A stretch of DNA of 64,000 nucleotides from Pseudomonadota bacterium. Lineage in GTDB: Bacteria > Desulfobacterota > Desulfovibrionia > Desulfovibrionales > Desulfovibrionaceae. The stretch covers positions 1-64,000 of the forward strand of contig JAHJLB010000051.1 of assembly GCA_018822105.1 (NCBI GenBank). Direction: 5' to 3'. Positions 606 to 13,852 of this stretch are shown piece by piece. The notes under the pieces are model-generated. The model made no database searches. It saw only the letters and a list, made by a program, of their open reading frames with translations, and was not told the DNA's origin. Within the stretch, counting starts at the first letter, position 1, and each line of letters begins with the position of its first letter. A program made the position numbers and the translations under genes.

Positions 606-659
606 AATGAACATCTGGGCACAGCCGAAGCGGTGCCCGCTTGACTGGGAGGTGCCTTG

Positions 660-1109
660 ATGTCCAAAACAGATCCGCGCCCGCATACGCCGCTGCTTGC
701 GGTGGACGTGCTGGTGCATCTGCCAGGACGCGGCATCGTGCTTGTGGAGCGCAGGAATCCGCCCCGCGGCTGGGCCCTGCCCGGGGGCTTCGTGGACGTG
801 GGCGAGTCCTGCGAAGCGGCCGCCGTGCGCGAGATGCGCGAGGAGACCGGGCTCGACGTGGAGCTCACCGCGCTCCTGGGCGTATACTCCGACCCGGCCC
901 GCGACCCGCGCGGCCATACTGCCAGCGCCGTGTACACCGCCCAGGCCCTGGACGCGGGCCTGCTTTTGGCCGGGGATGACGCCGCGCAGGCGGCCGTGTT
1001 CCCCCTGGACGCGCTGCCCCCCCTGGCCTTTGACCACGGAAAGATCGTGCATGAGTATGTCCGCAGGCTCGCCAGCCTCCGCCCGCAGGGCGGAGTTGCG
1101 CAGACCTGA
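660..1109 (+). CDS. Nudix hydrolase
   Basis: The 149-residue protein carries a complete Nudix box: a GGFVDVGE segment followed by REMREETG, which matches GX5EX7REUXEEXGU and supplies the metal-binding glutamates. Such enzymes hydrolyse nucleoside diphosphates linked to another moiety, for example ADP-ribose or oxidised nucleotides. The substrate cannot be told from sequence. The ATG at 660 is chosen because GGGAGG at 647-652 lies 7 bases upstream; a TTG directly before it is in frame but less likely. It is followed 45 bases later by glgA on the same strand, so the two may be co-transcribed. An ADP-sugar pyrophosphatase acting near glycogen synthesis is an attractive guess only. Confidence 0.85.
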   Translation: MSKTDPRPHTPLLAVDVLVHLPGRGIVLVERRNPPRGWALPGGFVDVGESCEAAAVREMREETGLDVELTALLGVYSDPARDPRGHTASAVYTAQALDAGLLLAGDDAAQAAVFPLDALPPLAFDHGKIVHEYVRRLASLRPQGGVAQT

Positions 1110-1154
1110 TCCGGGCCGGGCGCAACAGGCCACGACCCAGTTACGAGGAAGCGC

Positions 1155-2615
1155 ATGGCAACCAAGCCTCTTGTCCTGTTCATGACTTCGGAGATGTACC
1201 CCTTTTCCAAGACCGGGGGGCTGGCGGACGTCTTGGGCGCGCTGCCCCTGACCCTGCACCGCCTGGGCGTCAACACCGCCGTGGTCACCCCCATGTACGG
1301 GCGCTTCGCCACCTCCGGGTTCAACCTGCGCCTGGTCACGGAGCGCTGCCCCGTGGGCTATCCCTGGGCGCCCATCACCGCCGAGATATACCAGGCCGAC
1401 TACTACGGCCTGCCCGTGTACTTCGTGGGCCGGGGCGAGTATTTCGACCGCCGCTTCCTGTACAACACGCACGCCGGCGACTATTTCGACAACTGCGAGC
1501 GCTTCAACTTCTTCTGCCGGGCCACCCTGGAATGGGCGCGGCGCCTGGACTGGGCGCCGGCCGTCATCCACGCCCACGACTGGCAGAGCGCGCTTGTGCC
1601 CGCCTATCTGCATTTCTGGAGGCGCACGGACCCCTTCTGGAAAAACACCAAGACCGTGCTGACCATCCACAACCTGGCCTTCCAGGGCCGCTTCGCCTCG
1701 CGCCTGTTCTTCGATTCCGGCCTGCCCGACGAGGCCTGGAACATGAACGGGGCCGAATTCTACGGCGACTTCAACCTGCTCAAGACCGGCATCGCCTATG
1801 CCGACTCCGTGACCACTGTGAGCCCCACCTACGCCGAGGAGATCCTGACCCCGGAGTTCGGCTGCGGGCTGGAGGGGCTGCTGCGCCGCCGCCGGGGCGT
1901 GCTGCGCGGCATACTGAACGGTGCGGACTATTCGGTCTGGGATCCGCGCGACGACAAGTTCCTGCCCTGCATCTACCGCTCCGGCAGCCCGGAGGGGAAA
2001 CTGGACTGCAAGCGCGCCCTCTTGAAGGAGATGTGCCTGCCCGACCAGTTGGAGGACAAGCCGCTCCTCAGCTTCATCGGACGCTTCCGCGGCCAGAAGG
2101 GCGTGGACCTGCTCATCGACATCATCCCGAAGCTCATGGAGATGGAGATCGGGCTCATCGTCCTGGGCGAAGGCAAAATGGAGCACGAGGCCCGGCTCCA
2201 GGAGCTGGCCGAGGAGCATCATGACCGGCTCTGCGTCATCGTTGGCTATTCCGAGGACCTGGCCCACCGCATCCAGGCCGGGTCGGACATCTTCCTCATG
2301 CCCTCGCGCTATGAGCCCTGCGGACTGACGCAGATGTACGCCCTGCGCTTCGGCACCCCGCCGGTGGCCACCTCCGTGGGCGGCCTGCGCGACACCATCG
2401 TGCCCTATCCGCACCCGCAGGCCACAGGCTTCACCTTTGCCGAACCCGATCCCGAGGCCTTCTACCAGACCATCTGCGAGGCCGTGGATCTTTGGAGAAA
2501 CAAGAAGGCCTATTGGCGGGGCATGGTAGAGCGCGCCATGGGCCAGGATTTCAGCTGGGAAAGTTCCGCCGCCCGGTACATCGAGCTTTACCGCTCCCTG
2601 GGCGCACGGGTGTAG
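1155..2615 (+). CDS. glgA: Glycogen synthase (ADP-glucose type, GT5)
   Basis: The protein transfers glucose from ADP-glucose to the growing alpha-1,4-glucan chain in the cytoplasm. At 486 residues it is the usual length for bacterial GlgA. The nucleotide-sugar motif KTGGLADV begins at residue 19, and the C-terminal GT-B half holds the family signature [18 protein letters not shown] that contacts the donor. A GAGGAA ribosome site precedes the ATG. A stand-alone glycogen-binding CBM48 protein follows 51 bases downstream, and pgm and malQ lie within 15 kb, so this region looks like a loose polyglucose-metabolism neighbourhood. No branching enzyme or ADP-glucose pyrophosphorylase is in the window. 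Confidence 0.96.
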
Positions 2616-2666
2616 CAGAACCCTGTCACCCGGCCCCGGGGGCCGCCTGCGAAGAAGGGGACGACC

Positions 2667-2972
2667 ATGCCGCTGACCAAAAGCTTTTCCAAGGACAAAA
2701 GCACCTGCAAGGTGGGCTTCTCGCTGCCGGCCGATGCCGCAGGGGGGGCCAAGAAACTCTATCTGGCCGGGGAGTTCAACGAATGGAACCCCACGGTGTT
2801 GCCCATGCGCAAGGCCAAGGGCGTGTTCGCCGCCAAGCTGGAGCTGCCCGCCGGTTCGCCCTACCAGTACCGCTACGTCACCGACGAGGGCATCTGGCTG
2901 AACGACACCGAGGCCGACTGCTACGTCTACAGCGCCTTCGCCGATGCGGACAATTCGGTGGTCGTGCTCTAG
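2667..2972 (+). CDS. Stand-alone CBM48 / glycogen-binding domain protein
   Basis: The 101-residue protein is almost entirely one carbohydrate-binding module of the CBM48/AMPK-beta type. It contains the typical KKLYLAGEFNEWNP stretch with the sugar-stacking Trp, then PYQYRYVTDEGIWLNDTEAD near the end. There is no catalytic domain and no signal peptide, so it should be cytosolic. A GAAGGGG ribosome site precedes the ATG by about 8 bases. Its place directly after glgA suggests that it binds the polyglucose granule or modulates the synthase; this is inference. Such domains are more often fused to branching or debranching enzymes or to kinases. Confidence 0.85.
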   Translation: MPLTKSFSKDKSTCKVGFSLPADAAGGAKKLYLAGEFNEWNPTVLPMRKAKGVFAAKLELPAGSPYQYRYVTDEGIWLNDTEADCYVYSAFADADNSVVVL

Positions 2973-3077
2973 GCCCGCACCCTTGCGGTCCAGCGCGCTT
3001 CTGCGGTACGGTGCGTGGAGCATGACCAGACGCACACGCAGCAGCGCACGCCCCGCCTCCCGGCCAGGAACCGGCCC

Positions 3078-3989
3078 ATGACCGGGGAAGGACGCACCGC
3101 CCAGACCCTTTGCGCCTTCGCCGGCGCGGAGCAGGTTGTGGCGCGTCTGCGCACCCTCTCCGCGCAGGCACCCCAAAGTCTGGTCATCGAGGGCGGCACA
3201 GAGGCCGACCGCGACACCGCGGCCCTGGCCTGGGCCGCCACCCTGAACTGCACGGCCGAGGCCGCCCGGCGGCCATGCTGCCACTGCCCCTGCTGCGTCC
3301 AGATCGCCCAGGGCGTGTTTCTGGACCTCAAGGTCTTTGGCGGCGAGGAAAAAATCAGCGCCGAGATCGTACGCGAGGCCCTGCCCGAATGGGGCCAGCC
3401 CCCGCGGGGGGCCGGCAGGCGCGTCAGCATCTTCCGCGGCGCCCATGAATTCCACCCCGCCGTGGCCAACCTGCTGCTGAAAACCCTTGAGGAGCCGCGG
3501 CCCGGCAACGTCTTCGTCCTGCTCGCCCCCCAGCGCGAACGCCTGCTCCAGACCCTGGTCTCGCGCAGCTTCGTGCTCACCCTGCCCTGGCCTGAAGCCA
3601 AGGCGCCGGAACCGGATGTGGCCGAATGGCTGACGGCGCTCCTGCACTTCTGGGACACCGGGCAGGGCTGGTTCGAGCGCACCGGAACCAAGGGCGCGGC
3701 GGACCGCCCCCTGGCCCAGCGCCTGCTATCGGCCTGCCAGCGCGAACTGGCCCTGGCCATTTCCGGCCCGGCGGAGCCAGAGGGCCAGCACCGGCGGACC
3801 GGCTCCCACGCACAGCAGCTGGCGCGGCTTGGCCCGGCCGGGCTGCGGCGTCTGGACATGGTGCTGGCGCAGGCCCAGGAGGCCCTCAACCAACCCACGG
3901 TGATGCCTGCGCTGGTGCTGGACTGGATCGCCACGGCCATGATTCCCACGGACCGGACGAAGGCGGGGACGGGGTTCAGACGGCCTTGA
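3078..3989 (+). CDS. holB: DNA polymerase III delta prime subunit
   Basis: This clamp-loader subunit helps open the beta sliding clamp during replication. The region before AAVANLLLKTLEEP and VFVLLAP, and the SRS motif that follows, are characteristic of DnaX/HolB AAA proteins. A cysteine cluster (C58, then C67, C68, C70, C72 and C73) forms the zinc module of this family. The P-loop is degenerate (IEGGTEADRDT), as expected for a delta prime that does not hydrolyse ATP. The ATG at 3078 is preferred to the upstream GTG at 3015 because AGGAA lies 7 bases before it; this gives 303 residues. The 3-prime end overlaps the convergent adenylate cyclase gene by 14 bases. Confidence 0.85.
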   Translation: MTGEGRTAQTLCAFAGAEQVVARLRTLSAQAPQSLVIEGGTEADRDTAALAWAATLNCTAEAARRPCCHCPCCVQIAQGVFLDLKVFGGEEKISAEIVREALPEWGQPPRGAGRRVSIFRGAHEFHPAVANLLLKTLEEPRPGNVFVLLAPQRERLLQTLVSRSFVLTLPWPEAKAPEPDVAEWLTALLHFWDTGQGWFERTGTKGAADRPLAQRLLSACQRELALAISGPAEPEGQHRRTGSHAQQLARLGPAGLRRLDMVLAQAQEALNQPTVMPALVLDWIATAMIPTDRTKAGTGFRRP

Positions 3990-6900
3990 CCCTGGGGCAG
4001 GCGGATTTCTTCGGGATGAAGATCTTCAATTCCGGCCGGGACGGCACCTTCCTGCTCAAGTTCTCGCGCAGGAAGGTCAGCGGCGAGACCGCAAGCAGCG
4101 GAGCCGGGTTTTCAAAGCTCTGGCAGAACACTTCGCCCCAATTGGTGGCGTAGATCACCGAGGCCAGGAGAATCTTGTTCTTGTCCGGGGGCACCGGCAG
4201 ATTCAGAATGATGTAGGCCCGGGTCACCCGCTCGTCTTGCAGGTACTCGTCCATGTCCGGGTCCAGTATCTCGCGCCGGGGAAAGAAGGCCGCGAGGTCG
4301 GAGAGCAGCGCCTGCATGTCCATCACCGCGATGGGCGCAAGGCTCTTTTCGGCCTGCACGGCCAGCCCGGCGTCATAGATGCCGTTGACCAGAACCCAGG
4401 CCAACAGCCGCGCGATGTCCGTATCCCGGCGGATGGGCGCCAGGGACTCCACTGCGGCCTTGCCCGTGGCCTTCTCCTTGCCCTTCACGGCCCAGACCGT
4501 GCGTTTTCCCGGCGCCTTCTCGGCATAGAAGAACAGCTCGGTGAAGGCGATGTCCTCAAACAGGAAGGGCACCAGGCTCACCTTGTGCTCGTGCTGGGCG
4601 AAGTTGGCGGCTATGCGGCGGCCCAGGCGCGTCATGTCCTGGGGGGTGATGCTGGCGGCGGCGCGGTTGGCCCGGATGCCGCCCTGGATGCGGCGATAGG
4701 CCGCGATCATGAAATGGTTCACCAGCCCGCCCAGGCGCAGGGAATGGGCGAAGGTGCCGTTCCCGGGCATGGCCTCCGCGAGCCGGCCGAACTCCGGCGG
4801 CAGGTCCTCGGGGTCCACGTCGGCCTTGAGGCGCAGGCATTCGGCCAAAAGGCCAAGGGAGCCCTGGTCGCCCAGCTCGGCATAGTGCTTGTGGATGGAG
4901 GAGAACAGGGCCAGATAGGGGTCCACCCACTCCGGCCGGGTTCTCCCGCGCAGCGCCGCCTCCTTGATGCGGTCGCAGAGCAGCCGCATGGTCTGGCCCT
5001 TGCCCGCGTACTTCTCAAGCAGGCCCAGCTTCATCACCGACTTGTACGGGCTGTGCAGGGCCTTGACCATCTGCCACAGGCAGGCGCCGAAATACTCGCC
5101 GGGCGGGATGGCCTCGGGCTGCCCCAGGTCCACCAGCTCTTCGGCCAAGCGGGGATCCAGGACGGCGATCTCCGCCATAAGGGCCTGCACGGCGGCGGCC
5201 TCCGCGCCAGGGGGAGCTACCCACCAGGCCAGATCCTTGCCCGCCAGCTTGAACGCCGTGCGGTAGAACTCCTCCTTGAGCAGGGCCGCCTGGGCCGACC
5301 CGGAGCTCTCCTTGTCGCTCATGCCGAAAGCATTGCCGCGCACCTCGTCCAGGGTCATGGCGAAAAAGTGGACCTCCAGGCCAAACTGCAGCGCTGCCCA
5401 TTGCTCCAGGGCCGCAAGCTTGGAGCGCAAGCCCTCCCGGACCTCCTGCGCGGCGGCGGCGGGCGTGGAGTGGCAGACCCAGCAGTCGATGTCCGAGGAG
5501 GGCTTCTGGGCCACGGAGCCCAGGCTGCCGATGGCGTACAGGGCCTCGATGACCAGCGCCGGCCGGGACTGCGCCGCCGGGGTCTGGCCCGGAAAAAACT
5601 TCTCCAGCAAGGCCGGGTCCACCCTGAGCGTTCTTCCGGCCAGGGCGCAGGCCGGAACGCCCTTGATGCCCTGGCTCTTTTCAAAGACATCCGTGACGAG
5701 GAGCTGCGGCAAGAGCCGCAGAAAGACGCCCTGCGGCTCGGTGAAGCGGCTCAGGGCCAGCTCGGTCCGGCGCTGGTTCTGCCAGCGTATGGAGGCCAGG
5801 GTGCGCCGGGCCTCGTCCACGCGCACATAGCGGCCGACGCACGCCGCGACGAACGCCGCGCCAGGCCCGTCCCGCAAGGCCTGGGGCAGCTCCGCGGCTT
5901 CGCCTTGCGCCGCGGCCAAGGTCACGGCCAACGCGGCGCACCGGGCCGCGGCAAGATGCGGGTTGTCCGTGTGGCCTCCCAGAACGGTCAGGCCAGGCAG
6001 GGAGCAGCGCGAAAAGACCAGGCCCAGGGTCTCGCAATTGCGCAGACAGGCCTGGGTCAGGGAACAGTCCGTGAACTCCGAGCTGCGGCAGTTGGTCCGC
6101 TCGAACACCGCGCCGGAGAGGTCGCAACGCGTGAAGGAGCATCCGGCCAGGGACGTCTCCTGAGCCCGCAGCCCGGAAAAGGCGCTGCCCCTGGCGACAA
6201 GGCGGTCTACACGCACGGTGGCCAAAAATGCCCCTGCAAAGCCCGACTCGACAACGCTGCACCCTTCCGCGATGCAGTTCGCCATGCGCACGTGCGCCGC
6301 GTCGCAGCGCTCAAAAACACAATTTTCAAAGCGGCATTTGTGGAAGGCCGCCTCGCAGAGATCGACCACGGCAAAGACGCAGGCCTGGAACGTGCAGCCT
6401 TCGAACCGGCTGCCCTGCAGGGCGCAAGCGCTCAGGCGGACCCTGCGGAACGTGACGGAGGTGAAGCGGCTGTCCGCGAGGTTCACGGAGGCGAGGGTGG
6501 AGCCGTCCAGGCTCACTCCGCTGAGGACGGAATGGGAAAAATCCTGATCCTTCAGGGGGATCAAGGCATCCTTCAGGGCCTCGGCCAGGGCGGGGCGACG
6601 CTGGCTGGCGGCCTTGGCTGGACCCTCGCCGGCGCGTTCCGGCAGAGCCATGAGGGCCGCGCCAGCGGCCTCGTCCTGGGCCAACTGGGCGGCGAGCATG
6701 TCCGCCAGGGCCTGCAGCCCGGCCTTATCCAGCCCCCCCTGCATGGCCTTGACCGCGCGGCGCAGGAAGTCCGGGTCATGGTGGACCAGGGCCTGGAAAT
6801 GCTGCGCCAGCGCCGCCGCCCGCTCGCTCTCCGGAACCCCCGCGAGCAGGGACTCCAACCCCAGCCGGGGCAGCAGGGGGACGAGGCGCAGGGAGGCCGC

Positions 6901-7773
6901 CCTCGCGGCACCGCCCTGGCGCAGCATCTCCGCCAGGACCAGCCCCAGCGCCTCCGACTCGGCCTGGGCGGCCAGCAGCAGCAGCTTCGGGGCTTCGGGC
7001 AGAAGGGCCAGGCGACGCATCTCCGCAATCAGCGCCGGTTCCCGCACGGCCAGATCGGGCGAGGCCGCCAGAAGCGGGCCCAGGCGGCTCGGTCCCGGAC
7101 TGCCCGCAGCGCGCAGCGAATATCCCAGGGCCTCCGCGTAAATCGTCGGGGACGCAAGCATCTCGGTGGCCTTGAGCAAGGCCTCGGCGGTGTTCACTTG
7201 CGGCGTGCCCGCAAAGGCCTTGGGCAAGGCATCGGCCATGCAGGCCGCAAGCAAAGCGTCGCGCAGGGGCTTGGCCAGGGGCGCGCCCTCGTCCGCCAAG
7301 GCGCGCAGGAACACAAGGATCTCCCTGGGGTTACAGCGTCCTGGCGCGGGCAGCAGCCCTTTGATCCAGGCCAGATACTGCTTGTCGTCGGCCGGGGGCG
7401 CCAGGAACATCTCGTTCACCAGGGCCAGAAACTCGCTCGCGGGCATGGCCAGCAGAACCGGCGTGAGCTGCGGCAGGGGCAGACTGCGGGCCTGGATGTG
7501 CAGCATGGCCAGGCAACGGCCGAACCGGCCCAGATGCACCAGGGCCTGCAGGATGCGCGACATGAGCGCCACATCGCGCAGGGTGCGCAGGGTGGCGAAC
7601 AGCAGGCAGGCGATTTCTCCGGCGGCGACGGCGCCCTGGGGGCCGACGGCTTGCCCGGCCGGGAGCGCCGCCAGGTCCGACAAGAGACCGGGGAGCACCC
7701 TCGGGGCATCGCTCTGCCCCGAGCGGAGAAAATTCCGGAGGGCTCCCGCGAGTTCAGCAGCAGACAGACTCAT
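3976..7773 (-). CDS. cyaA: Class I adenylate cyclase with helical and pentapeptide-repeat N-terminal regions
   Basis: The enzyme makes cAMP from ATP. The C-terminal half matches enterobacterial CyaA: GSLGSVAQKPSSDIDCWV at about 749-766 holds the paired aspartates of the nucleotidyltransferase centre (D761, D763), and EEFYRTAFKLAGK at about 834-846 is also a class hallmark. At 1265 residues it is about 400 longer than E. coli CyaA (848). Residues 1 to about 400 are Ala/Leu-rich helices, possibly HEAT-like. Residues about 405-600 form a pentapeptide-repeat region with Cys/Phe/Leu-centred repeats. Neither is part of the E. coli enzyme. The EIIA-responsive C-terminal region of E. coli CyaA is not obviously conserved. 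The ribosome site is weak (GGGGG next to the ATG). A cyclic-nucleotide-binding protein lies 2.7 kb away on the same strand. Confidence 0.88.
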   Translation of the reverse strand: MSLSAAELAGALRNFLRSGQSDAPRVLPGLLSDLAALPAGQAVGPQGAVAAGEIACLLFATLRTLRDVALMSRILQALVHLGRFGRCLAMLHIQARSLPLPQLTPVLLAMPASEFLALVNEMFLAPPADDKQYLAWIKGLLPAPGRCNPREILVFLRALADEGAPLAKPLRDALLAACMADALPKAFAGTPQVNTAEALLKATEMLASPTIYAEALGYSLRAAGSPGPSRLGPLLAASPDLAVREPALIAEMRRLALLPEAPKLLLLAAQAESEALGLVLAEMLRQGGAARAASLRLVPLLPRLGLESLLAGVPESERAAALAQHFQALVHHDPDFLRRAVKAMQGGLDKAGLQALADMLAAQLAQDEAAGAALMALPERAGEGPAKAASQRRPALAEALKDALIPLKDQDFSHSVLSGVSLDGSTLASVNLADSRFTSVTFRRVRLSACALQGSRFEGCTFQACVFAVVDLCEAAFHKCRFENCVFERCDAAHVRMANCIAEGCSVVESGFAGAFLATVRVDRLVARGSAFSGLRAQETSLAGCSFTRCDLSGAVFERTNCRSSEFTDCSLTQACLRNCETLGLVFSRCSLPGLTVLGGHTDNPHLAAARCAALAVTLAAAQGEAAELPQALRDGPGAAFVAACVGRYVRVDEARRTLASIRWQNQRRTELALSRFTEPQGVFLRLLPQLLVTDVFEKSQGIKGVPACALAGRTLRVDPALLEKFFPGQTPAAQSRPALVIEALYAIGSLGSVAQKPSSDIDCWVCHSTPAAAAQEVREGLRSKLAALEQWAALQFGLEVHFFAMTLDEVRGNAFGMSDKESSGSAQAALLKEEFYRTAFKLAGKDLAWWVAPPGAEAAAVQALMAEIAVLDPRLAEELVDLGQPEAIPPGEYFGACLWQMVKALHSPYKSVMKLGLLEKYAGKGQTMRLLCDRIKEAALRGRTRPEWVDPYLALFSSIHKHYAELGDQGSLGLLAECLRLKADVDPEDLPPEFGRLAEAMPGNGTFAHSLRLGGLVNHFMIAAYRRIQGGIRANRAAASITPQDMTRLGRRIAANFAQHEHKVSLVPFLFEDIAFTELFFYAEKAPGKRTVWAVKGKEKATGKAAVESLAPIRRDTDIARLLAWVLVNGIYDAGLAVQAEKSLAPIAVMDMQALLSDLAAFFPRREILDPDMDEYLQDERVTRAYIILNLPVPPDKNKILLASVIYATNWGEVFCQSFENPAPLLAVSPLTFLRENLSRKVPSRPELKIFIPKKSACPRVKAV

Positions 7774-7854
7774 GCCCCCAGCATACAGCGGAAATGCCGG
7801 AGAGTCGAGGCCCGAAAACTTGTCAAGGAAAGTATAAAAAATTGCACCCGGTTG

Positions 7855-7883
7855 TTGACTTTGCGCACCCGCAGGGCTAGATT
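7855..7883 (+). promoter_or_regulatory. Sigma-70 promoter for the outer-membrane barrel gene
   Basis: TTGACT at 7855-7860 and TAGATT at 7878-7883 are 17 bases apart, close to the housekeeping consensus. The predicted start near 7890 leaves a leader of about 54 bases ending in a GGAGG ribosome site. It lies between divergent genes, so it may share control with the cyclase promoter. Confidence 0.6.
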
Positions 7884-7943
7884 TGGATTACATCGTGAAA
7901 AAGTCTTTATCCTCCAAATAGTTGCCGGAGGAAAGAATCACCC

Positions 7944-8663
7944 ATGTATAAGGCGCATCCCCTCATCATTTCCGTGCTCGCCCTTGTGGCGGTCCTGGCC
8001 TGCAGCCCCGCCTACGCGGCCGACAAGGGCGGCGTCTACATCGGCGTCAAGGGCGGCTATGAATACAAGGACCACAACAGCGCCGGCCTGACGGACAGCA
8101 CCGTCGCCCCCAACAACGCCAACGCCACCAAGAACTGGAGCGGCAAAAGCGGGTACACCGTGGGCGGCGCCCTCGGCTACAATTTCTCGGGCATGGGACT
8201 TCCGGTGCGCGCTGAGGCCGAGTACCTGTACCACGACCAGTTCAAGTACAGTTCCGCGAACGGCACTGCCGCCACCAGCACCGGGGCCTTCACCTCCAAG
8301 ATCGACATCCACACCCTGTTCGCCAACTTCTATTACGACATCAAGACCAACACCGCCTTCACCCCATACGTGGGCGCGGGCCTGGGCGTGGCCTGGATCA
8401 AACAGAAGGCTGCAGGCAACTTCGCCAACACCAATGGCGCGGCGTGGAACAACAACGGCAACTTCGACGCCACCAGCTTCGCCTGGAACCTGGGCGGGGG
8501 CGTGGGCTACTCCCTCAACGACAGCATCACCCTCGACCTGGGCTACCGCTACACCAGCTTCGGAGACGCCAAGAAGGCCTCCAACGCCGCCGGAACCCTG
8601 AACTTCCAGCCCAAGGGCATCACGTCCCACGAGGCCCTGCTGGGCCTGCGCTACCAGTTCTGA
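7944..8663 (+). CDS. OmpA-like outer-membrane beta-barrel protein
   Basis: The 239-residue protein starts with a signal peptide (hydrophobic core at residues 7-20, cleavage near SPAYA-A at about 25) and ends in Tyr-Gln-Phe, the terminal aromatic signature recognised by the BAM complex. In between are alternating amphipathic strands with Gly and Tyr/Phe pairs, such as YIGVKGGYEY, VGGALGYNF, TPYVGAGLGVAW and LDLGYRYTSFG, fitting an eight-stranded barrel of the OMP_b-brl class. It has no peptidoglycan-binding domain. A good promoter, a GGAGG site and a downstream hairpin make it a single-gene unit, typical of an abundant porin-like surface protein. The ligand is unknown. Confidence 0.85.
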   Translation: MYKAHPLIISVLALVAVLACSPAYAADKGGVYIGVKGGYEYKDHNSAGLTDSTVAPNNANATKNWSGKSGYTVGGALGYNFSGMGLPVRAEAEYLYHDQFKYSSANGTAATSTGAFTSKIDIHTLFANFYYDIKTNTAFTPYVGAGLGVAWIKQKAAGNFANTNGAAWNNNGNFDATSFAWNLGGGVGYSLNDSITLDLGYRYTSFGDAKKASNAAGTLNFQPKGITSHEALLGLRYQF

Positions 8664-8686
8664 CGCAAGCGACTCCGCTCACAAAC

Positions 8687-8714
8687 AGGCGGCCCCGCTT
8701 GCGCGGGGCCGCCT
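8687..8714. terminator. Convergent-gene terminator hairpin
   Basis: Arms at 8687-8698 (aggcggccccgc) and 8703-8714 pair over 12 bases with a TTGC loop. It lies between the barrel gene and pgm, which point at each other, and can serve both. The flanking T runs are short (CATTTC on plus, GTTTGTG on minus). Confidence 0.7.
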
Positions 8715-8761
8715 CATTTCGCCCTGCCCCCTGCTTGCGGAACCATCAGAAGGGGGGCGGC

Positions 8762-10414
8762 TTACGCCCCTGCCGCCACAAAGGCCGCGTTGACCATGGC
8801 CTGGGCCTCCTGCTGCAGCAGCGCTAGGTGCTCCCTGCCCAGGAAGCTCTCGGCGTAGATCTTGTAGATGTCCTCCGTGCCCGAGGGCCGCGCGGCGAAC
8901 CAGCCGTTCTGGGTCACCACCTTGAGCCCGCCAATGTCGGCGTTGTTGCCCGGCGCGCGGGTCAGCTTGGCCTGGATGGGCTCCCCGGCGAGGCGCTCAG
9001 CCGTCAGCATCTCCGGGGTGAGCCTCTTGAAGGCCGCCTTCTGGGCCGTGCTGGCGGGGGCGTCCATGCGCTCGTACACCGGGCTGCCGAAACGGGCCTC
9101 CAGGGCGGCGTAGAGCAGTCCCGGATCCTTGCCCGTGCGCGCGGTGATCTCCGCAGCCAGGAGGCCCATGATGATGCCGTCCTTGTCCGTGGTCCAGACC
9201 GTGCCGTCATGCCGCAGGAAGCTCGCGCCCGCGCTCTCCTCGCCGCCAAAGCCGAAGGACCCGTCAAGGAGCCCGCCCACGAACCACTTGAAGCCCACAG
9301 GCACCTCCGCGAGCCTGCGGCCCAGGTGCGCGGCCACGCGGTCCAGCATGGAGCTTGAGACCACGGTTTTGCCCACAGCGGCGTCCGCGCGCCAGCCTGG
9401 CCGGTTGGTGAACAGGTAGTCCACGGCCACGGAGAGGTAGTGGTTGGGATTAAGCAGCCCGTGGCTTCGGGTGACGATGCCGTGGCGGTCAAAATCCGGG
9501 TCGTTGCCAAAGGCCACGTCAAAGCTGTCCTTGTGCGCGATGAGCCCCCGCATGGCGTAGGGCGAGGAGCAATCCATGCGGATCTTGCCGTCCTTGTCCA
9601 CGCTCATGAAGGAGAATGTCGGGTCCACGGCCTTGTTGACCACCGTGAGCCTGATCCCCCAGCGCTTGGCGATGGGCTCCAGGAACTCGACACCCGAACC
9701 GCCCAAGGGGTCGGCCCCAATGGAAATGCCCGATTCCGCGATGGCCCGCATGTCGATGACGCTGCCGAGGTCTTCCACATAGGGCGCCACATAGTCCATC
9801 TGATGCGTGTTGCCGGCCGCGAGGGCGCGCGCAAGGGGCAGGCGCCGCACCCCGGCCAGCCCGGTCCGCAAAAGCTCGTTGGCCCTATCCTGGATGGCCT
9901 TGGTGGTGGCCGTGTCCGCCGGGCCGCCCTCGGGCGGGTTGTACTTGATGCCCCCGTCCTGGGGCGGGTTGTGCGAGGGGGTCACCACAACGCCGTCGGC
10001 CCGGCGGTGGCCGGGATTGCTGTTGTGGCACAGGATGGCGTGGGAGATCACCGGCGTGGGCGTAAAGCCGCCGCCCGACTGGATCATCACCTCCACGCCA
10101 TTGGCCGCGAAGACCGTGAGGGCCGTGGCCAGGGCCGAGGCGGACAGGGCGTGCGTATCCATGCCCATGAACAACGGGCCGCTGATGCCCGCCGCCGTGC
10201 GCTGCTCCACAATGGCCTGGCTGATGGCCAGGATATGGTCTTCGTTGAAGCTGCCCGCCGAACTGCAGCCCCGGTGGCCGGAGGTGCCGAAGCTGACCCG
10301 CTGGGCCGGATTGTCGGGATCGGGAGAGAGGTCCGAGTAGTCGGCCAGCAGGCGCGGAATGTCGGCGAGGATCTCTTTGGGCGCGGGCTTACCCGCCAGC
10401 GGATGAACGGCCAT
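8762..10414 (-). CDS. pgm: Phosphoglucomutase (alpha-D-glucose phosphate specific)
   Basis: The enzyme interconverts glucose 1-phosphate and glucose 6-phosphate, linking glycogen turnover to glycolysis. The sequence follows E. coli Pgm (546 residues) along its whole length. The phosphoserine loop [11 protein letters not shown], the metal loop NDPDFDRHG, the sugar-binding [12 protein letters not shown] and the phosphate-binding ARPSGTED are all present. The ATG at 10414 is preferred to an ATG four codons upstream because GGAGG sits 6 bases before it and the protein then starts [11 protein letters not shown], like E. coli MAIHNRAGQPA. This gives 550 residues. The cyclic-nucleotide-binding gene ends 30 bases upstream on the same strand, so the two may form an operon. 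Confidence 0.96.
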
Positions 10415-10444
10415 GGGTGCCTCCATAGGATGTGCCGGGGCTGT

Positions 10445-10924
10445 TCAGCCCCGCGTGCCGGTGCATTGGGATACTTTCTCGTCCATCTTGCGCAGGCGCA
10501 CGGCCAGCACCTCGCAGAAAATGCGGTAGAGGATGGCCTGGAGCATGTACTTGTCCTGGGCCGCCTGCCGGTCAAACAGAGAGGCGTCCACGGCCACGCA
10601 CAGGGTGGGGCTCATGGCCTTGATGCTGGCCGAGCGCGGACTTCCGTCGATGATGCCCATCTCGCCGAAGACGTCTCCCAGGCGGCGGATGGTGCCGACC
10701 TCCACGCCCTTGTGGCTGATCTTGAGCTCGCCCTTGATCAGGAAGAAGACCCAGGCGTCATACTCGCCCTCCCGGATGAGGATCTCGCCCGGCTCGTATT
10801 TGCGCATGCGGCTCATGCGCACCAGCTCCTGCACCATCTTCTCCTCCAGGGAGGAGAAGGCCGGGATCTTGCGGAACTGGTCCAGGGTTTCGGCGTTTGT
10901 CGGATCGAATTCAAGTTCCTTCAT
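10445..10924 (-). CDS. Cyclic-nucleotide-binding domain protein without DNA-binding domain
   Basis: The 159-residue protein is a single cyclic-nucleotide-binding beta-roll, with the phosphate-binding cassette FGEMGIIDGSPRSASI in its canonical form. It stops about 30 residues after the roll with a helix (CEVLAVRLRKMDEK) and has no helix-turn-helix, so it is not a Crp-type regulator. The ATG at 10924 has GAGG 5 bases upstream; upstream starts at 10957 and 10981 lack good ribosome sites. It lies directly upstream of pgm and 2.7 kb from the class I adenylate cyclase on the same strand. A role as a cAMP-responsive adaptor is possible but unproven. Confidence 0.85.
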   Translation of the reverse strand: MKELEFDPTNAETLDQFRKIPAFSSLEEKMVQELVRMSRMRKYEPGEILIREGEYDAWVFFLIKGELKISHKGVEVGTIRRLGDVFGEMGIIDGSPRSASIKAMSPTLCVAVDASLFDRQAAQDKYMLQAILYRIFCEVLAVRLRKMDEKVSQCTGTRG

Positions 10925-11161
10925 GGCAACCTCGCAGAGGGAGCTTTCATGCAACATGCCTGAATCCCAGGCTGTGGGCAAGGGCTCGGGACCGGCCGGC
11001 GAGACAATTCCCGCTCACCGGCTTGCCTCCGGCAGGCCGCAACAGCTCTTTGCCCGCCGCCCTTGATCATGCCCCTGGGCTGGGGTATGTGTGACTGCGG
11101 CTCAGGCTCGCAGAGACCTTTCGCCATGACGCGCAAAGGCCGGACAACCGAAGAGGACCAC

Positions 11162-12034
11162 ATGGACACAAGCCCCAAGAACGTGCGGGAGCACATCGCC
11201 CGCTCCAAATTCTTCCTGCAGCGCAAGGAAATCCTGAAAAGCCTCAGGTCCCTGGCCTTGGCCCTGGAGTTGCTGGCGGGCGGGCAGATCTTCGGCCGCG
11301 AGCGCATCGAGATCGACAGCCTTCTGGATGAGGGCATACGCCTGCTCATGGAGCAGGAGGCGCTCCGCCGCGCCTTTGCGCCCGGGCTGGTCTACAAGAA
11401 GGGGCAGGAGCGCGAGATGGCGGCCAGCATCAACCGCGTGGCCGCGGCCCTGGAGTCCGTGCTGGACAAGGCCAGGCTGGAGGAGCGGCGCAGCCGCCTC
11501 GCGGAGCTCGACGAGCTCATCCTCGGGGGCCAGGCGGAACTGGACCAGAAGCATCCCCTGGAGGCCCGCAAGCTCTTCCGCCGCGTGGCCGAGCTCTTTG
11601 GCGACGAGCCAGGCGTATTGGTGGACGTCGGCAACCGGTACATGCTGGCCGGACTGGTGGCCGAGGCCCAGGAGTGCTTCCAGAAGAGCATCGAGGCCGC
11701 CCCGGGCGACATGCGCGCCTTCGGCGCCCTGGCCCAATGCCACGACGCCCTGGGCGAAGGTGAAAAGGCCGAGGAGGTCATGCGTGCGGCCCTGCGGCGC
11801 TTCGGCCCCGTGGAGGCCCTGAACCTGCGCCTGGCCAAGGGCGCCCTGGAGCGCCGCAAATGGGACGAGGCCCTGCTCAACGCCCAGGCGGTTCTGACGC
11901 TGAATCCCCAGAGCCAGGAGGCCCAGCGCCTGGCCGCCGCCGCCAGCCAGCACCTGTACGGCGACCCCCAGGCCTATCTGCGCGAGAACCCCCGGCCCGG
12001 CGGCCAAGGCCGGGAGATCAACATCGACATCTGA
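11162..12034 (+). CDS. Tetratricopeptide-repeat protein
   Basis: This 290-residue soluble protein has a helical charged N-terminal half and a C-terminal TPR array. Repeats are visible as HPLEARKLFRRVAELFGDEP, LAGLVAEAQECFQKSIEAAP, HDALGEGEKAEEVMRAALRR and ERRKWDEALLNAQAVLTLNP. There is no signal peptide or membrane segment. The ATG at 11162 is chosen for the AAGAGGA site about 5 bases upstream; an in-frame ATG at 11063 is unsupported. It is transcribed alone, divergently from the cyclic-nucleotide-binding gene, and its partner is unknown. It ends near the shared terminator with groEL. Confidence 0.75.
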   Translation: MDTSPKNVREHIARSKFFLQRKEILKSLRSLALALELLAGGQIFGRERIEIDSLLDEGIRLLMEQEALRRAFAPGLVYKKGQEREMAASINRVAAALESVLDKARLEERRSRLAELDELILGGQAELDQKHPLEARKLFRRVAELFGDEPGVLVDVGNRYMLAGLVAEAQECFQKSIEAAPGDMRAFGALAQCHDALGEGEKAEEVMRAALRRFGPVEALNLRLAKGALERRKWDEALLNAQAVLTLNPQSQEAQRLAAAASQHLYGDPQAYLRENPRPGGQGREINIDI

Positions 12035-12097
12035 CGGCGGCTCAGGCGCGGGCAGCCGAGCATATCCTGCGCAGCGTCCGCCATGACGCCAAACAAA

Positions 12098-12125
12098 AGG
12101 CCGGAGCCCTTGCGGACTCCGGCCT
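12098..12125. terminator. Bidirectional terminator between the TPR gene and groEL
   Basis: Arms aggccggag (12098-12106) and ctccggcct (12117-12125) pair perfectly. On the minus strand the stem is followed by TTTTGTTT, a good U tract for ending groEL. On the plus strand CTTCAATTGTTG follows, so it can also end the TPR transcript. Confidence 0.85.
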
Positions 12126-12154
12126 CTTCAATTGTTGTCTCTCGGCTGGTCGGG

Positions 12155-13852
<1,698 letters not shown>

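Follow-up and report, generated by a model that had tools for sequence, protein, structure and literature searches.

The 64,000-nucleotide stretch analysed here (the window: positions 1 to 64,000 of contig JAHJLB010000051.1, assembly GCA_018822105.1, Desulfovibrionaceae) encodes a class I adenylate cyclase that belongs to an old lineage in Desulfobacterota, with a putative regulatory apparatus unlike that of Escherichia coli CyaA. Most of what is understood about class I cyclases comes from E. coli CyaA and its control by the phosphotransferase system (PTS). The main interest of the window protein (3976-7773, minus strand, 1265 residues) is its predicted two-solenoid N-terminal arm, set on a catalytic core that lacks the E. 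coli control domain. A search of open-licence papers turned up none whose title or opening of the abstract concerned this architecture, although protein databases may list it without a paper. A lineage built in this way is a natural experiment on class I cyclase regulation, and the architecture offers clean constructs: the core, the pentapeptide-repeat protein (PRP) segment plus core, and the full-length enzyme. It probably has a different way of controlling cyclic AMP (cAMP). From sequence comparison and structure prediction we propose a regulatory swap, in which an N-terminal solenoid sensor would be coupled through a stiff PRP rod to a core without the E. coli-type C-terminal domain; we put the probability of this reading at about 0.48.

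An earlier note on this DNA had given the reading frame its correct coordinates, strand and length, and had described class I catalytic motifs lying only after residue 700, behind about 600 extra residues of which some 400 are helical and about 195 form Cys-rich pentapeptide repeats; this anatomy holds throughout. The gene is identified by its open reading frame, by Pfam and by same-genus relatives. Adenyl_cycl_N (PF12633) spans residues 664-851 (5221-5784, on the minus strand like all other parts of the gene) with 149.1 bits against a cut-off of 27, while Adenylate_cycl (PF01295, a partial match) sets in at residue 879 with 135.8 bits against a cut-off of 27, the remainder of the core extending to residue 1265 (3979-5139) by Pfam and by alignment with E. 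coli. At residues 749-765 (5479-5529) lies an intact nucleotidyltransferase-type motif, GS(x)9SDxDxW, here GSLGSVAQKPSSDIDCW and aligned with E. coli GSTSSVGQSCSSDLDIW, which we take to hold the catalytic residues of class I cyclases. Positions G749, S750, G752, A755, Q756, S760, D761, D763 and W765 are invariant in all 22 long forms aligned (22 of 24; alignment A1). BLAST against E. coli CyaA (848 residues) returns 31% identity over 472 columns, covering E. coli residues 78 to 534, and the NCBIfam equivalog cut-offs of the PRK09450 models are not reached (best 342.7 against 802 bits), as befits a distant member that is no equivalog. The two enzymes share a homologous core and the same motif, and we infer that the core of the window protein (residues about 656-1265, the counterpart of roughly the first 640 residues of E. 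coli CyaA) would make cAMP from ATP at this site. In contrast, CyaA has no solenoid or PRP arm, and the N-terminal addition ahead of the core amounts to about 655 residues in the window protein.

The second difference lies at the other end. About 210 C-terminal residues of E. coli CyaA are without counterpart in the window protein, of which 13 residues lie beyond the column of E. coli residue 640 in the multiple alignment; MAFFT pushed the last few of these far to the right, so that the end column at 843 is no true match. When E. coli residues 631-848 were used as a phmmer query, E. coli alone was matched among 145 class I cyclases. CyaA has been described as thought to carry a C-terminal regulatory domain, with phospho-EIIA-Glc acting at residue 609 (PMC7382830). 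This residue, His in E. coli, aligns with Ser1219 of the window protein, and both the Ser at this column and the absence of the domain had been overlooked by the earlier note. Sorted by architecture, 131 distinct class I cyclases comprise 72 PRP forms, 50 core-only forms (a label that takes in L168 and L169, which are cut by contig ends) and nine forms with a C-terminal tail, E. coli included. A tail of more than 30 residues occurs in none of the 72 PRP forms and a PRP in none of the nine distinct C-tail forms. The C-tail cyclases (tails of 278-325 residues; Deferrisomatales and others) have the same core and no PRP, and their tails bear no phmmer-detectable similarity to that of E. coli. Short class I cyclases also occur in Desulfobacterota, Nitrospinota and Nitrospirota. 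Mostly 610-750 residues long, they have a core of similar length to that of the window protein and no detected E. coli-type C-terminal domain, but they differ from it in having no N-terminal arm. Among solved structures, no match to E. coli CyaA by sequence was found at E <= 1 in the copy searched, and searches with the window protein and its family gave matches confined to the PRP and the adjoining helices.

The PRP occupies residues 404-601 (5971-6564). Pentapeptide_4 (71 bits), Pentapeptide (57.8 bits) and Pentapeptide_3 (41.6 bits) all match above cut-off at about residues 437-600, and of the 198 residues in the segment 16 are Cys (8.1%; the N-part has 1.0% and the core 1.3%). AlphaFold2 was run separately on residues 1-420 and on residues 401-1265. 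The second, 865-residue model (mean pLDDT 89.3) shows the repeats as a regular, right-handed quadrilateral beta-helix of 10 coils (pLDDT mostly 90-98), in line with their assignment as a PRP. Two long helices follow (model residues 205-225 and 236-276, protein residues 605-625 and 636-676) and run into the cyclase domain, the segment of residues 602-663 (5785-5970) forming the helical link between the two. A fold search with this model is dominated by PRP and other beta-helix matches and so sheds no light on how the catalytic core folds; the PRP itself superimposes on HetL (3du1) with a Z-score of 25.8 and a root-mean-square deviation of 1.8 over 207 residues, Qnr, MfpA and AlbG scoring lower. 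HetL of Nostoc is a single-domain PRP with the same beta-helix; however, it is unfused to an enzyme and binds through defined faces, whereas the window-type PRP has no conserved face. HetL acts by binding a protein, HetR (PMC7476756). Conservation was assessed in 11 genus-clade rows and, more widely, in the 22 long forms. The inward positions i and i-2 show lower positional entropy than the outward positions, and the four outward faces do not differ in conservation (permutation p 0.95 for the genus rows and 0.996 for the wider set), whole-face averages being liable to miss a small patch. Since the inward positions are the more conserved and no outward face stands out, the PRP resembles a rod rather than a surface for docking. 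Together with its near-neutral net charge, this makes it look like a rod kept for shape, and the solenoid in front of it is then the likelier binding part. A link to anti-phage systems that pair PRPs with nucleotidyltransferases was also considered and dropped: PADLOC reported nothing for the cyclase, and the match to the HalA PRP is below cut-off (52.4 versus 250 bits).

Ahead of the PRP, residues 1-375 (6649-7773) are predicted to be entirely helical (mean pLDDT 87.5 for the model of residues 1-420, the last helix reaching residue 375), and a low-confidence linker of residues 376-403 (6565-6648; pLDDT block means of 40-60) joins the two parts. In the models the helical region looks like a HEAT/ARM-like alpha-solenoid. 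No Pfam family matches residues 1-420 of the window protein at E <= 0.05, HEAT families included. HEAT_2 does match at this threshold in relatives, namely in 7 of 28 members of one main branch and 11 of 23 of the other, the best match having an E-value of 3.8e-14. The N-domains of the two branches are homologous by profile comparison (hhalign probability 99.2, E 1e-19, 390 columns). The alignments covered the window protein with 27 of 52 locus stretches (A2), the window protein with 50 of the 52 (A3, without L176 and L208) and 23 of the other 25 (A4). In the fold comparison, the N-region matched importin-alpha and other ARM proteins with Z-scores of up to 9.6, a range common for helical repeats, and Foldseek returned no match to its model at E <= 0.001.

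Taken as a mechanism, these models suggest that the solenoid of residues 1-375 is the likeliest sensor or partner-binding part, and that the 10-coil PRP would serve as a stiff rod and spacer. Perhaps the PRP passes a change of position or strain through the two helices at residues 605-676 into the cyclase domain, whose output would thereby be placed under the control of the arm.

The architecture is recurrent and old. A PRP ahead of the core, which the survey proposed in the earlier note was meant to look for, occurs in the 72 distinct forms mentioned above, mostly from Desulfovibrionales and Desulfobacterales, and the N-part has at least 600 residues in 67 of them, the other five (L013, L143, L148, L158 and L165) being cut or broken upstream. 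All 72 fall in one clade, with an SH-aLRT support of 97 in the 131-row tree (145 cyclases minus the duplicate loci L008 and L012, proteins below 500 residues and identical cores) and of 89 under a mixture model with 66 rows (41 hand-picked PRP rows plus every second row of the rest, once E. coli and rows cut by contig ends or on long branches had been set aside). The two non-PRP rows within the clade are the contig-cut L168 and L169. Most simply, the arm would have been acquired once in the lineage. Among 40 relatives' genomes the gene is present in 13 of the 14 others of the same genus, at 75-48% identity. A contig end truncates the copy in G008, the frame in G002 is disrupted close to its C-terminal end, and G007 (82% complete) gave no match. 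In 395 genomes of the phylum PF12633 was found in 50 at E <= 0.001, 49 of them above cut-off. A profile hidden Markov model of the N-domain matched 10 of the same 395 genomes strongly (E below 1e-15), always in PRP-cyclase frames, and 18 further genomes weakly (E 2e-6 or worse). A scan of named genomes, covering the best 80 of at least 530 relatives and returning 79 loci, placed Humidesulfovibrio metagenome-assembled genomes (MAGs) with the closest among the matches listed, and the PRP form is found, again among the matches listed, in Solidesulfovibrio, Salidesulfovibrio, Pseudodesulfovibrio, Halodesulfovibrio, Desulfobacula, Desulfotignum and Desulfospira joergensenii. By the NG86 method the nonsynonymous rate (dN) is below the synonymous rate (dS) in all four parts of the protein and for all six genus relatives compared, and the N-domain and the PRP change about twice as quickly as the core.

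Several observations on individual copies stand apart from this survey. In the same-genus genome HGW-Deltaproteobacteria-8 the cyclase frame is disrupted close to the C-terminal end (L116, 8507-12276, minus strand; L134, 4890-8659, plus strand), which may reflect a pseudogene or a sequence error. The Desulfovibrio MAG 8-LJY_028 has two adjacent PRP cyclase genes on opposite strands (L145, 4770-8735, plus, and 9521-13681, minus) and a third, L154, elsewhere in the genome. Two PRP copies are likewise present in G016, and a PRP copy together with a core-only copy in both G080 and G116. L114, L153 and L161 show an N-terminal extension that may be merely an over-long open frame.

A number of points weigh against a regulatory swap. 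The core-only cyclases are likewise without the E. coli C-terminal domain; its absence is therefore not special to PRP forms and, as far as these sequences suggest, need not be tied to the arm. Indeed, the domain may be a gain on the E. coli side. The HEAT label depends on weak Pfam matches in relatives and on Z-scores common for helical repeats. Both trees come from quick searches and gave composition warnings, and the 131-row tree gave long-branch warnings as well. Finally, an N-domain and PRP that evolve at about twice the speed of the core would also fit a passive arm.

It is possible, if rather unlikely, that control by the PTS was kept by another route. In that case a soluble PTS protein (HPr, enzyme I (EI), EIIA-man or, in genomes that have one, an EIIA-Glc-type domain) would attach to the arm or the core and signal the phosphorylation state. 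In the Desulfobacterales-type branch, 12 of 26 loci have HPr and/or EI genes downstream of the cyclase, adjoining it in L180, L183 and L199. However, this adjacency is limited to one branch and falls within a wider conserved block, parE-parC, mostly with LOG and smpB, so that it may be plain synteny. The EI-like genes of L144 and L152, found by BLAST cluster and for L144 also by phmmer, were dropped because Pfam shows them to be of the phosphoenolpyruvate synthase/pyruvate phosphate dikinase type. The genome of the window (G000) encodes one HPr and one EIIA-man, but on contigs other than that of the cyclase, and EIIA-Glc (PF00358) had no match in it. PF00358 is present in 5 of the 40 relatives' genomes, including G021 and the same-genus G001, G004 and G014, which have the same cyclase and where the PF00358 frame of 866-937 residues also contains an HPr domain. 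The Ser in place of His609 speaks against an EIIA-Glc contact of the E. coli kind. The suggestion of the earlier note that the added parts replace PTS control may hold: it is favoured by the missing C-terminal domain and by the EIIA-Glc not found in the window's genome, and is weakened by PF00358 in those relatives, by the HPr and EIIA-man that are present and by the HPr/EI genes of the Desulfobacterales-type loci. Cyclic-nucleotide signalling is otherwise represented in the window's genome by four class III cyclase domains and 11 cyclic-nucleotide-binding domains, 10 of them above cut-off.

Also doubtful is a scenario in which the arm carries no signal at all and is passive or a part for assembly, stabilising, oligomerising or localising the enzyme. 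The absence of a conserved PRP face and the faster evolution of the N-part and PRP would fit such an arm. However, dN below dS in every part, together with retention across the whole clade, suggests more than padding. The earlier note had supposed that the added parts sense a partner or protect an interaction surface; these parts are real, old and under purifying selection, and at the level of whole faces no conserved surface for either role is seen on the PRP.

MfpA and Qnr are acidic DNA mimics, and the PRP could in principle dock on a type IIA topoisomerase as they do, coupling cAMP synthesis to DNA topology. Besides the shared fold, with Qnr, MfpA and AlbG among the nearest solved PRP structures, this idea draws on parE (a topoisomerase IV/gyrase B-type gene), which stands divergently upstream of the cyclase in 12 of the 26 Desulfobacterales-type loci (between L170 and L206; L162, L164 and L067 have less than 1.5 kb of upstream sequence). 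In the f11 lineage, across the clade from that branch, it precedes the cyclase on the same strand in two of three contigs (L078; L073/L146). Such docking is nevertheless very unlikely. The third f11 contig, L149, has no parE in the 5 kb upstream, and no topoisomerase lies among the neighbours of the window cyclase (657-12034) or, in the flanks covered, in any other locus on the f11 side of the clade. Unlike an acidic mimic, the PRP is near-neutral, with a net charge of 0 in the window protein and a mean of -1.4 (range -11 to 7) over the 72 distinct sequences, it has no conserved face, and it falls far short of the NCBIfam cut-offs for Qnr (36.1 versus 240 bits) and MfpA (27.7 versus 360 bits). 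A variant in which an ancestral arm docked on topoisomerase IV or gyrase, so that cAMP reported supercoiling or replication state, and the arm of the window lineage has since drifted to another partner, is a long shot as well. That two genes were joined by an assembly or sequencing error is virtually ruled out by the 13 same-genus copies and the 72 distinct PRP forms, nothing was found in its favour, and recurrence in relatives together with dN below dS means that neither chance nor such a join explains the architecture.

The regulatory swap that we favour is set in differing gene neighbourhoods. In the window, the minus strand carries, in this order, a 178-residue cyclic-nucleotide-binding protein (10445-10981, PF00027 as sole Pfam match), phosphoglucomutase (pgm, 8762-10426, TIGR01132 above cut-off) and the cyclase. 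The pgm gene was matched in 15 of the 16 genus-clade loci, which represent 10 contigs, several of them twice, and the exception, L119, is truncated at a contig end; the cyclic-nucleotide-binding protein was matched in 9 of the 16. Between pgm and the cyclase lies a divergent outer-membrane beta-barrel gene (7944-8663, plus strand), matched in 6 of the 16. On the other side, the neighbour scan shows a convergent DNA polymerase III delta'-like gene (3015-3989, plus strand), whose 3' end overlaps that of the cyclase. The queries for these neighbours and for those of the other branches derived from PRP loci and matched none in 61 non-PRP loci, whose flanks are short. CRP boxes in the window gave no signal, with 4 matches against 12.2 expected.

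The pair at 8762-10981 stands on one side of the cyclase, and glgA and a CBM48 protein stand on the other. The latter is a free-standing AMPK1_CBM/CBM48 glycogen-binding-type protein of 101 residues beside glgA (2667-2969, plus strand), matched in part of the genus. The neighbourhood of cyclic-nucleotide-binding protein, pgm and cyclase hints at a link between cAMP and glycogen. Of the 12 rows in the Solidesulfovibrio-type clade, 9 (L090, L096, L097, L113, L150, L156, L157, L159 and L160) have a same-strand gene immediately upstream for an HD-GYP-type protein (DUF3391 and HD_5, as in cyclic di-GMP phosphodiesterases), and the other three are cut by contig ends; this arrangement suggests cross-talk between cAMP and cyclic di-GMP.

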